Below are positions 1-2,490 of a DNA stretch of 43,310 nucleotides, in pieces; the first letter of the stretch is position 1; every line of letters begins with the position of its first letter. A program made the position numbers and the translations under genes. Origin of the DNA: Paludibacter sp. GTDB taxonomy: Bacteria > Bacteroidota > Bacteroidia > Bacteroidales > Paludibacteraceae. Under the pieces are notes generated by a model. The model saw only the letters and a program-made list of their open reading frames with translations. It searched no databases and had not been told where the DNA came from. The stretch spans positions 1-43,310 of the forward strand of contig JAQUYE010000019.1 of assembly GCA_028691965.1 (NCBI GenBank), in the 5' to 3' direction.

Positions 1-1117
1 CGATCTCTTCGAACAATCCGTCGATTCCCTTCGGAGGCACGACACCGGTGGAAAGAACCACCATGTCGTGTTCGGCTTCCATGAGCTTACCGGTGTTAAT
101 GTCTTCGTAACGAAGGATAAGGTCGCCGCCTTCCTTTTCGGTTATGCGGCCAATTTTTCCTTTTACAAAGTTTACTCCCATGCCTTTTGCCTGCTGATAG
201 AACTCTTCGAATCCTTTCCCAAACGAGCGGATATTGATGTAGTAGATGGTCACATCAGCCATTGGCAATGCGCCCATCAGGAGCTGTGCCTGTTTGATGG
301 AATACATGCAGCAGATCTGTGAGCAAATCGGATTGCCGATGGTGGCATCGCGGGAGCCTACACATAATACATAGGCCAGTCGATCAGGCATTTTGCCGTC
401 GCCCGGACGAAGAATGGTATTAAACGGACGGGTAGGAGCCAGCTGGCGTTCCATCTGCATGGCAGTAATAATATTCTTATACTCACCAAAGCCGTAACGA
501 GGCATTTTCTTAGCATCGAACAGGTCGAACCCGGTAGCCAGAATAACAGTCTTTACGTGCAGGTTCATAGTTTCCGGTTCCATGGTGAAGTCGATACAGT
601 TGGTCGGACATACCTTCTCGCACGCACCACAAAGGGTACAGTTGTCGATATCGATGGCTGCAGCTTTCGGACTGGCAATGCTAAAGGGGATGAAAGCGGC
701 TTTGCGACCTACCAGACCGTACTGGTACTGGTCGGTAACGCTTACCGGACAAGCCTGCTCGCAAAGCTGGCAGGAGGTACAGTCGGCTACATGAACATAT
801 CGTGGTTTTTTGATTACTTTCGCTACAAATTCGTTATCGCTCACCTTGCGGATACTTCCGACTTCCGATCCCGTGAAGATGGTAATATTCGGATGACGCG
901 ATATCTCGGAGATCTTCGGAGTGGTAATACAGGCGGAGCAGTCGAGGGTAGGGAATACCTTGCTCAGCATGATCATCTTACCGCCCACGGATAAATCCTT
1001 TTCTACGAGCAATACCTTGTAACCCGTTACGGCCAGGTTGAGAGCAGCCTCACTGCCCGCAATGCCGGCACCGATTACCAGTGCGTCGTAGGTGATGTTT
1101 TTTATCGTGTTTTCCAT
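1..1117 (-). CDS. HdrA-like FAD/iron-sulfur oxidoreductase (partial, C-terminus outside window)
   Basis: This is the N-terminal ~372 residues of a heterodisulfide reductase subunit A-type flavoprotein, read from the reverse complement. It opens with an FAD-binding Rossmann motif (VIGAGIAGSEAAL, about residue 14). The HdrA signature cysteine stretch LDCSACITTPK follows, then two ferredoxin-type clusters (CTSCQLCEQACP and CTLCGACEKVCP) and the later HdrA block CVGSRD...CSQICCMYSIKQA. HdrA proteins carry FAD plus several 4Fe-4S clusters and act as the electron-bifurcating or electron-distributing hub of Hdr complexes in the cytoplasm. The ATG at 1115-1117 shares one base with the TAA of the mvhD-like gene upstream, so the two are translationally coupled. 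It is the last visible gene of the dsrE2-tusA-mvhD-hdrA operon; HdrB or HdrC partners could lie beyond position 1. The family is secure; the physiological electron donor and acceptor are not known. QmoA-type proteins are close relatives and an alternative label. Confidence 0.9.
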   Translation of the reverse strand, partial: MENTIKNITYDALVIGAGIAGSEAALNLAVTGYKVLLVEKDLSVGGKMIMLSKVFPTLDCSACITTPKISEISRHPNITIFTGSEVGSIRKVSDNEFVAKVIKKPRYVHVADCTSCQLCEQACPVSVTDQYQYGLVGRKAAFIPFSIASPKAAAIDIDNCTLCGACEKVCPTNCIDFTMEPETMNLHVKTVILATGFDLFDAKKMPRYGFGEYKNIITAMQMERQLAPTRPFNTILRPGDGKMPDRLAYVLCVGSRDATIGNPICSQICCMYSIKQAQLLMGALPMADVTIYYINIRSFGKGFEEFYQQAKGMGVNFVKGKIGRITEKEGGDLILRYEDINTGKLMEAEHDMVVLSTGVVPPKGIDGLFEEI

Positions 1118-1524
1118 TAACTATGCCGTGTTTTAAGTAAATACTCATTAAAGCTTTTTACCTGTTTTACAAACGATGCACTACACACCGAACAGATGGC
1201 CGCCATACGAAGACGTGCGGGATCCAGTTCGCTTTCTTTCATCAGGTTGTGTGTTTTCGAGACCAGATTACCGGTTTTTTCGGTACACGACTCTCCATAT
1301 ACACAGTCGCTACCATCAGCAGCAATAAAAACGCCATCGAAGCCTTTTTCATAGGCATACAGAATCCAGCTGGGTTTGATGGCACTGGAACAGGGAACAG
1401 AGATGGTATAGACGGTAGGAGGATAATGTAATTTCAGAAGTCCTGCCATATCAATGGCAGGATCTGAAATCTTCTCAGTGGAAAATACAAGTATCTTCGC
1501 ACTCTTGGCGTTTATTTCTCCCAT
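1117..1524 (-). CDS. MvhD/FlpD-like hydrogenase iron-sulfur (delta) subunit
   Basis: This 135-residue protein fits the FlpD/MvhD family (methyl-viologen-reducing hydrogenase delta subunit), a small iron-sulfur protein that passes electrons to or from HdrA. Its cysteines sit where the family has them: C45 (VPCSSAIKPSWILYAYEKG), C74 and C80 (SDCVYGESC), and C111/C114 (CSVC). The phrase 'AYEKGFDGVFIAADGSDC' matches the family core of a helix followed by a strand and a cysteine loop. The length is typical for stand-alone members. It lies 11 bp after tusA and overlaps the start of hdrA by one base, so it should be co-translated with HdrA. No hydrogenase large or small subunit is visible, which suggests that it connects HdrA to something other than a hydrogenase. 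Confidence 0.85.
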   Translation of the reverse strand: MGEINAKSAKILVFSTEKISDPAIDMAGLLKLHYPPTVYTISVPCSSAIKPSWILYAYEKGFDGVFIAADGSDCVYGESCTEKTGNLVSKTHNLMKESELDPARLRMAAICSVCSASFVKQVKSFNEYLLKTRHS

Positions 1525-1535
1525 AGCTGGAATAC

Positions 1536-1787
1536 TTATTTCTTACGTAAGTAAATTTTGAAATAACCGTTTTCTTCTACGGTTCCCAGGAATTCGTGTC
1601 CTTGTTTGGTACACCATTTCGGGATGTCAACCTTGGTTCCTTCGTCGGCCGAAAGTACTTCCATTACATCACCTGCTGCTACGCCGCCGATTGCTTTCTT
1701 TGCTTCCAATAGTGGCCCCGGACAAGCTGTTCCACGTGCGTCTACTGATTTTGCTACTGCTACTGCTTTTAATTCTTCCTGTGTCAT
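1536..1787 (-). CDS. tusA: TusA-family sulfur-carrier protein
   Basis: An 83-residue protein of the TusA/SirA/YedF family. These proteins carry sulfur as a persulfide on one conserved cysteine and hand it to partners in tRNA thiolation, molybdenum cofactor synthesis or dissimilatory sulfur metabolism. The hallmark CPGP motif is present at residues 22-25 (ARGTACPGPLLEAKKAI), with C22 as the predicted persulfide carrier. A second cysteine, C59, follows in PKWCTKQGHE. The C-terminal half has the expected pattern for a two-layer alpha/beta fold and ends in KIYLRKK. It sits between the dsrE2-like and mvhD-like genes, the arrangement seen when TusA serves a sulfur-transfer chain rather than tRNA modification. 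The name is by family; its specific partner is inferred from position. Confidence 0.9.
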   Translation of the reverse strand: MTQEELKAVAVAKSVDARGTACPGPLLEAKKAIGGVAAGDVMEVLSADEGTKVDIPKWCTKQGHEFLGTVEENGYFKIYLRKK

Positions 1788-1812
1788 GATTGTAATTATT
1801 AATTGTTAGTTG

Positions 1813-2379
1813 TTAGATGAATAGTTGGATGCTGCTTTCGCCGGCTTCGGCAACAAAGGTTGCGGCACCTGCCATACGCAGATCGGGATAGTCGATAAAT
1901 TCTTCCTTTTTGAAGCCCATTAGTCCTGCCGACATTTCGCAAACGGTAATCTCAATACCCAGTTCGCCCGCTTCTTTGAACATCTGGTCGATCGACATTA
2001 CGTTTTGTTTCTTCATCAGGTACTTAATCATTACCGGACCCATACCGGCCATGTTCATATTCGAGAGTTTTAGTTTGTTGTACCCGCGCGGGAGCATGAA
2101 GCCAAACATCTTCGATATAAAGTCTTTTCCTTCGGCTTTCTTTCGTGCATCACGAAGTGCTGAAAGCGACCAGAACGAAAAGAATAGTTTCACTTGCGTG
2201 TCCATGGCAGCGGCAGCAATGCTGATAACCATGGCAGCCATAATTTTGTCGAGATCGCCCGAAACGACCGCTATCGACAGTTGATCTTTACGATTGTTCT
2301 CCAGTTGGTCGACCCGTTTCTGCAACGCTTCTATCTGTTCGATAAGTTGTGCAGCTGTAGGTTCTGATGATGTGCTCAT
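1813..2379 (-). CDS. DsrE2-like (DsrE/DsrF/DrsH family) sulfur-transfer protein
   Basis: A 188-residue protein with a DsrE2-type domain, a family often annotated as 'peroxiredoxin family protein' and linked with TusA and rhodanese in sulfur trafficking. Residues 10-30 form a short amphipathic, probably coiled-coil helix (LIEQIEALQKRVDQLENN). The domain starts at LSIAVVSGDLDKIMAAMVIS and contains a hydrophobic helix, then a FFSFWSLSALR segment and a large MFGFML...NMAGMG loop. The conserved cysteine is C147 in ITVCEMSAGLMG, the expected persulfide site. It is the first gene of the minus-strand operon and has a TATCTTTG -7 box at 2411-2418. Twenty-five bases separate it from tusA, and that gap contains the TTAATTG/TTAGTTG heptamers also seen near 37800. 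Confidence 0.85.
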   Translation of the reverse strand: MSTSSEPTAAQLIEQIEALQKRVDQLENNRKDQLSIAVVSGDLDKIMAAMVISIAAAAMDTQVKLFFSFWSLSALRDARKKAEGKDFISKMFGFMLPRGYNKLKLSNMNMAGMGPVMIKYLMKKQNVMSIDQMFKEAGELGIEITVCEMSAGLMGFKKEEFIDYPDLRMAGAATFVAEAGESSIQLFI

Positions 2380-2470: not shown

Positions 2471-2490
2471 TTTGTGATAAATGTCACAAA
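2471..2490. promoter_or_regulatory. Rex- or CRP/FNR-like operator, perfect inverted repeat
   Basis: TTTGTGA (2471-2477) and TCACAAA (2484-2490) form a perfect 7-bp inverted repeat with a 6-bp spacer. The core TGTGA-N6-TCACA is the CRP/FNR-family consensus. The same bases match the outer half-sites of the Rex operator, TTGTGA...TCACAA in an 18-bp frame. Its centre lies about 75 bp upstream of the predicted dsrE2 start point and about 97 bp upstream of the DUF1599 start point. That spacing favours an activator of the sulfur operon, but it does not exclude Rex. Confidence 0.6.

Follow-up and report, generated by a model that had tools for sequence, protein, structure and literature searches.

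A conserved dsrE2-tusA-flpD operon with Qmo-like genes in Paludibacter and other Bacteroidales as a plausible candidate route from sulfur to sulfide

Which electron-transfer complex is served by the sulfur-carrier genes at the edge of a Paludibacter contig, and in which direction would it move sulfur? The DNA analyzed here (the window) is one complete contig of 43310 bp (contig C87 of genome G000; GenBank JAQUYE010000019.1), at whose start lie four packed minus-strand genes, dsrE2, tusA, flpD (mvhD) and hdrA, with 25 bp between dsrE2 and tusA, 11 bp between tusA and flpD and an overlap of 1 bp between flpD and hdrA. This arrangement, reported in a preliminary description of the window, was confirmed by Pfam and NCBIfam profiles (Table 1). 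The same description took the unit to be an HdrA/MvhD pair alone; further subunits exist, namely a second, QmoB-like HdrA, a winged-helix protein of 93 amino acids (aa) and a QmoC-like protein that joins HdrC to a membrane part, and the operon is predicted to encode a Qmo-like membrane complex. Judged by its genes, it is a plausible candidate route from sulfur to sulfide in some anaerobic Bacteroidales. We assign a probability of about 0.5 to the reading that this molybdenum-free complex links menaquinone and a carrier on the FlpD side with sulfur held on DsrE2 and TusA, probably in the reductive direction.

Gene order and the two lineages

A scan of genome contigs returned 341 loci confirmed by tblastn, the best 80 of which, all with Bacteroidota titles, were analyzed. 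Gene order was counted in the 48 of these 80 loci whose sequence extends 8.5 kb or more beyond dsrE2 on its downstream side, the presence of tusA being established by tblastn. All 48 have tusA, flpD, two successive hdrA genes and qmoC after dsrE2, and because the order recurs in every one of them it is not due to chance. The adjacency of tusA and dsrE2 to hdrA, which the preliminary description had proposed to look for in relatives, is thus general among these loci and supports its association of sulfur carriers with HdrA/MvhD electron transfer in Bacteroidales. The carriers of the operon include Paludibacter, Proteiniphilum, Fermentimonas, Petrimonas sp. IBARAKI, two Seramator thermalis strains and Bacteroidales bacterium CF.

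The complete unit is found in the closest relative of the Paludibacter genome (G033, locus L045), in the order dsrE2-tusA-flpD-qmoA-qmoB-93aa-qmoC, and encodes a TusA of 83 aa, an FlpD of 135 aa, a QmoA-like protein of 433 aa, a QmoB-like HdrA of 643 aa, the 93-aa open reading frame and a QmoC-like protein of 347 aa. As the window is a whole contig, its own hdrA gene is cut at position 1, after 372 codons, and its product is 94% identical to the complete 433-aa protein of L045. A second contig of the same genome, C132 (L043 121-3186), carries an HdrA-type (QmoB-like) gene without its first ~70 codons, the 93-aa open reading frame and a QmoC-like gene. The gap between C87 and C132 is ~0.4 kb, and their ends have no 12-mer in common, so that the contigs cannot be joined by overlap. 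We infer that C132 holds the missing genes of the window's operon, because L045 has both halves contiguous and is the nearest sequence to both (94% and 90% identity). The first ~120 bases of C132 (L043 1-120) do not match QmoB and have a GC content of 60%, compared with 48.8% in the operon genes of this contig, which suggests that the contig end is probably chimeric; a selenocysteine in QmoB, considered in view of a TGA codon that lies in frame close to the C132 start, was rejected for this reason.

Two forms of the operon can be distinguished. The window's form, present in 28 of the 48 loci, pairs a short QmoA with a free-standing 93-aa gene; in the sister form of the other 20, HdrA is long (926 aa in L047) and contains an inserted NAD(P)H module of GltD/NfnL-like type. 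Subunits A and B divide in the same way in a quick tree, which includes as reference an Ilyobacter HdrA, one of two records obtained from plasmids, and carries support only from the Shimodaira-Hasegawa-like approximate likelihood ratio test (SH-aLRT), and the two forms therefore look like two co-inherited lineages. The coupling to NADH suggested in the preliminary description finds a counterpart in the NAD(P)H-type domain of the sister lineage, but not in the window's form. With this module, and with HdrA-type flavoproteins being known in general as bifurcation modules, the complex might mainly connect menaquinone with NAD(P)H or ferredoxin by electron bifurcation or confurcation, DsrE2 and TusA serving only to sense or tune it. 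However, dsrE2 and tusA stand ahead of the redox genes in both lineages and in each of the 48 loci, which fits a substrate role better, and we regard such a link as distinctly unlikely to be the main function.

Table 1. Features of the dsrE2 operon and its upstream region in the window.
Feature	Position	Strand	Description
dsrE2	1813..2379	-	DsrE2-type sulfur carrier, 188 aa; Pfam DrsE_2, E 5.5e-44
tusA	1536..1787	-	Sulfur carrier, 83 aa; Pfam TusA, E 5.4e-24
flpD/mvhD	1117..1524	-	FlpD/MvhD-type protein, presumably [2Fe-2S] as in its family, 135 aa; Pfam FlpD, E 1.3e-27
qmoA-like	2..1117	-	HdrA-type flavoprotein, 372 of ~433 aa; NCBIfam HdrA2, E 1.6e-127
Palindrome	2472..2489		CRP/FNR-type, TTGTGA-N6-TCACAA; 92 bp before the dsrE2 start; sole perfect copy in the window

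Subunits and comparison with known complexes

Residue conservation was counted over the window genome's own protein and those named loci whose open reading frame lay inside a length limit, the others being dropped. Cys147 of DsrE2 is kept in 80 of 80 sequences and Cys22 of TusA in 52 of 52; FlpD retains five cysteines in all 73, and the QmoC-like protein eight cluster cysteines together with His213, His313 and His332 in all 55. The DsrE2 protein of the window scores 59.7 bits with the NCBIfam DsrE2 model, under the cut-off of 210 bits. The QmoA-like protein has a flavin adenine dinucleotide (FAD) domain and ferredoxin-type cluster sites, and its residues 7-426 align with residues 141-562 of HdrA in the solved complex 5odc (5odc_A, E 9.5e-115); the partial protein of the window covers positions 137-497 of the 777 in the HdrA2 profile and reaches 426.7 bits, the cut-off being 1100. 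The QmoB-like protein consists of the N-terminal part of HdrA, an FAD domain and terminal ferredoxin domains, and reaches 553 bits in L045 with the same model. Its middle cluster-cysteine columns are occupied in just 21 of 40 sequences, and some QmoB-like proteins (L106, L123 and others) are ~574 aa long, about 70 aa shorter.

The QmoC-like protein combines an HdrC domain with six hydrophobic stretches. It matches the NCBIfam qmoC model (NF038018) from end to end with 138.2 bits in L045 and 148.2 bits in L047, at a cut-off of 300 bits, and it also matches HdrC models. Its structure model, with a predicted local distance difference test score (pLDDT) of 69.8, gave no fold match at E 0.001, NarI appearing at E 2.6 with a probability of 0.63. 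The 93-aa protein is predicted to be a winged helix (pLDDT 83.6), for which Foldseek returned general winged helices, with SmtB as the best match (E 8.9e-4) and DsrD at rank 45 (E 1.6e-2); the predicted resemblance to SmtB and DsrD is one of fold only. Of 27 long-form QmoB proteins, 6 of them partly redundant, 26 carry this domain at the C-terminus (20 of 21 when the named loci alone are counted), and none of the 40 proteins of the window's form does so. Because of the fusion in the sister lineage we treat the 93-aa protein as a subunit, and the possibility that it is a mere regulator was rejected on the same ground. When the proteins encoded by the operon in the window, L045 and L047 were scanned with Pfam, no HdrB (CCG) domain appeared at E <=1e-5.

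The operon resembles the canonical type I QmoABC complex, in which two HdrA-type flavoproteins are likewise followed by an HdrC-plus-membrane subunit; the order A-B-C is seen in L045 and the named loci, and in the window's genome the set is split over C87 and C132. The differences are several. The QmoC of the operon stays below the type I cut-off, whereas controls linked to aprBA score 360 and 358 bits (G042 and G049) and 497 bits (G165, L212); dsrE2 and tusA occupy the position of aprBA; FlpD has a gene of its own; QmoB is followed by a winged-helix domain; and the QmoA and QmoB of the operon fall into separate clades in the quick tree (branch SH-aLRT 99), whose deep order is unsure because long branches were flagged. 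With the HdrABC-MvhD complex of methanogens and with HdrA2-type complexes the operon shares the HdrA fold, the FlpD/MvhD partner and the HdrC domain. It differs from them in that no HdrB domain was found in it, its HdrC bears a membrane part and its HdrA-type proteins remain under the HdrA equivalog/HdrA2 cut-offs. The preliminary description had noted no HdrB or HdrC at the contig end, where the view is simply cut off; a standard HdrABC-hydrogenase operon, which would have contradicted its interpretation, was not seen in the complete loci viewed, and neither was a hydrogenase gene. The sHdr system of sulfur oxidation also combines HdrA-type proteins with TusA/DsrE-type carriers; unlike it, the operon has a membrane QmoC and no HdrB domain that could be found.

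The YTD cluster (yedE-tusA-dsrE) and type II DsrEFH likewise contain TusA and DsrE-family carriers that act in dissimilatory sulfur metabolism; according to the available parts of two papers, these carriers are coupled to YedE or Dsr (PMC12998232, PMC13293266); archaeal dsrEFH type II genes are described there as occurring with qmoAB (PMC13293266). The present operon differs in having no yedE and in a partner that is Qmo-like, not Dsr. As described in the available part of a 2023 survey, type II QmoAB proteins are closer to HdrA than those of type I, occur with or without Apr and Dsr and have no settled function, and neither dsrE2 nor tusA is mentioned there as adjoining them (PMC10504309). 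The operon may belong with type II QmoAB, with which it was compared by description only. No description of a dsrE2-tusA-flpD-qmo operon was found in the literature searched, which included few subscription papers and was in part accessible as excerpts. Taken by its gene content, the operon is best described as a conserved Qmo/Hdr variant that is neither a canonical QmoABC or HdrABC nor a molybdopterin reductase.

Other arrangements of these carriers were also observed. At the end of contig C51 of the window's genome (L044 1-1847), a second tusA adjoins a Sulf_transp (YeeE/YedE-type) fragment, and a CRP-family gene runs in the divergent direction. Other Bacteroidales have proteins of 814-818 aa with a C-terminal DsrE2 (L063 8087-10534, L216 4983-7427, L217 5585-8041). 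The L216 protein is a fusion of a coenzyme A (CoA)-disulfide-reductase-type flavoprotein, rhodanese, TusA and DsrE2, which like the operon ties DsrE2 and TusA to a pyridine-nucleotide flavoprotein, and differs from it as a single soluble protein without HdrA, FlpD or QmoC; the L063 protein matches CoA-disulfide reductase and DsrE2, and that of L217 is known by BLAST match only. In G132 (L208 7114-10906), a rhodanese/metallo-lactamase-type gene, TusA and DsrE2 precede a ferredoxin-NrfD fusion gene, and the order in G077 (L207) is similar, as judged from open reading frames only.

Distribution and regulation

Among 60 relatives, DsrE2 at least 62% identical is present in 30 genomes, that of the window included. 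Across evenly sampled genomes of the order, DsrE2 alone, irrespective of gene order, was detected at E 1e-55 in 45 of 393 genomes and 34 of 207 genera; when 395 genomes were sampled evenly from the whole phylum, the window's own genome was the only one to reach this value, the next match being at E 5.5e-49. Presence varies within the genus: G016, a near-complete genome in a single contig of 3685504 bp, is without a close DsrE2 and has only a relative of 35% identity.

We take the palindrome upstream of dsrE2 (Table 1) to resemble the HcpR site of sulfate reducers. The window contains two sites with at most two mismatches versus 2.09 expected, which is not above chance and by itself proves nothing; the palindrome is significant because it is conserved across loci. 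Among the 78 named loci with 400 bp upstream of dsrE2, it is present with at most two mismatches in 64 and with at most one in 53, and 14 are without it; of 1404 random 400-bp stretches from the same loci, 2.9% and 0.3%, respectively, contain it. In 66 of 74 loci a divergent CRP/FNR-family gene is located no more than 1.5 kb upstream, and none was seen adjoining the window's copy. The operon is probably under a CRP/FNR-type regulator. Such control suits stress as much as respiration, and TusA and DsrE-type proteins are biosynthetic in many bacteria, so that the operon might serve persulfide homeostasis or detoxification, or the supply of sulfur for biosynthesis, and not energy metabolism. The patchy presence in the order nevertheless speaks against a general biosynthetic role, and a membrane HdrC/cytochrome-b-like subunit with a chain of many clusters would be costly for detoxification; we consider this explanation rather unlikely.

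Sulfur enzymes of the carriers and the proposed function

In the reading that we prefer, in which the substrate, direction, quinone link and site of reduction are at most inferred, FlpD, the two HdrA-type flavoproteins, the winged-helix subunit and the HdrC-plus-cytochrome-b-like subunit would form one complex whose soluble partner is TusA and DsrE2 instead of adenosine 5'-phosphosulfate reductase. Sulfane sulfur, whether from elemental sulfur, polysulfide or thiosulfate, would be loaded onto TusA and DsrE2 as the cytoplasmic substrate. The quinone pool is the obvious partner because the unit has a QmoC-like HdrC-plus-membrane subunit, through which electrons of menaquinol would enter. A second, soluble carrier would enter at FlpD; in the sister lineage, NAD(P)H would do so at the inserted domain. 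The protein persulfide would then be reduced and sulfide released, which would make the complex a sulfur or polysulfide reductase that serves fermentative Bacteroidales as an electron sink or in respiration.

Known sulfur enzymes are scarce in the genomes concerned. The absence of sulfur-dissimilation genes noted in the preliminary description extends from the window to its genome, where neither AprA nor DsrA exceeds the cut-off (AprA gives a weak match, E 2.4e-4). AprA was likewise below the cut-off in all 30 operon genomes; among the 60 relatives it exceeds the cut-off in two, G042 and G049, both without the dsrE2 operon, and weaker matches bring the number to 39 with the window's genome and those two counted. 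DsrA exceeds the cut-off in none of the 60 and gives weak matches in 5. In G042 (L209) and G049 (L210), two Bacteroidales genomes that serve as a control from inside the order, aprBA-like genes are followed by QmoA, QmoB and QmoC, and no DsrA match was obtained. A polysulfide, thiosulfate or sulfur reductase of the molybdopterin type differs from the operon in its catalytic domain, which Pfam scans did not find in the operon proteins. The corresponding profile PF00384 matched 20 of the 60 genomes at E 1e-15, and 25 of the 30 operon genomes, the window's among them, gave no match; at 1e-10, with eight genomes searched, there was none in Petrimonas sp. IBARAKI (a complete genome), Bacteroidales bacterium CF, the genome of L140 and G016. 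CoA-disulfide reductase (TIGR03385) was not found over the cut-off in 11 genomes, the match in IBARAKI being weak (E 9.6e-34).

A phenotype is available for one carrier lineage. Petrimonas sp. IBARAKI carries the operon (L118) in the long-HdrA sister form. According to the available part of its description, it was isolated from black colonies with sulfide and its 16S rRNA gene is 99% identical (1403/1407) to that of P. sulfuriphila BN3T, a strain that reduces elemental sulfur to H2S and is stimulated by it in its growth (PMC5940944). Petrimonas is also treated as a reducer of elemental sulfur in the accessible part of another paper (PMC9695182), and the terms Hdr, TusA and polysulfide do not occur in the accessible text of a paper on P. 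mucosa (PMC7768429). In the literature searched we found no enzyme to which the reduction of sulfur by Petrimonas or similar fermentative Bacteroidales is attributed. It is only tentatively that we extend the preferred reading to a new class of molybdenum-free, HdrA-based membrane sulfur respiration with carrier-held sulfur in the interior of the cell and a swappable NAD(P)H module, which would explain the reduction of elemental sulfur by Petrimonas and its relatives.

The same complex might instead run oxidatively, as proposed for sHdr and a reversed Qmo, with sulfide or carrier-bound sulfane sulfur being oxidized and the electrons passed to menaquinone. TusA and DsrE2 beside HdrA-type proteins are the arrangement of sulfur oxidizers, and a reversal of Qmo in Chlorobi is reported in the available part of the 2023 survey (PMC10504309). 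However, the 30 operon genomes offer no AprA or DsrA over the cut-off to carry the sulfur on to sulfite or sulfate, the unit is without an HdrB domain, and the one phenotype found, that of IBARAKI and P. sulfuriphila, is reductive as far as it is described in the source available. The carriers named in titles are, moreover, to our knowledge fermenters, and oxidation appears unlikely.

It is important to mention several points that weigh against the reductive reading. The function of the operon is here deduced from genes, and no catalytic site for sulfur was identified in the complex. At standard potentials, menaquinol by itself donates electrons to polysulfide poorly, so a second electron source of lower potential is expected, the candidates being FlpD and the NAD(P)H module. 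The direction rests on the tie between operon and phenotype in IBARAKI, which is a correlation in one lineage; this strain bears the sister form and not the window's, and its profile searches comprised PF00384 and TIGR03385. PF00384 does match five of the 30 operon genomes (G005, G032, G037, G047 and G059) at 1e-15 and, at 1e-10, both Seramator genomes; the genomes of L127 and L153 also match at the latter threshold. The window's genome has two CoA-disulfide-reductase-like genes, better matches than that of IBARAKI and below the cut-off, which could reduce sulfur instead. The absences in this genome are weak evidence because it is 89% complete, several of the other relatives being incomplete as well, and the link between C87 and C132 is unassembled.

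With these points taken into account, the operon is a concrete candidate for sulfur reduction in fermentative Bacteroidales such as Petrimonas. It also offers a role for the Apr-less, HdrA-like Qmo complexes, which, according to the available part of the 2023 survey, need experiments to clarify what they do (PMC10504309). Should the reductive reading hold, markers such as dsr, apr, psr and phs would miss a source of the sulfide that occurs in digesters, oil wells and wet soils.

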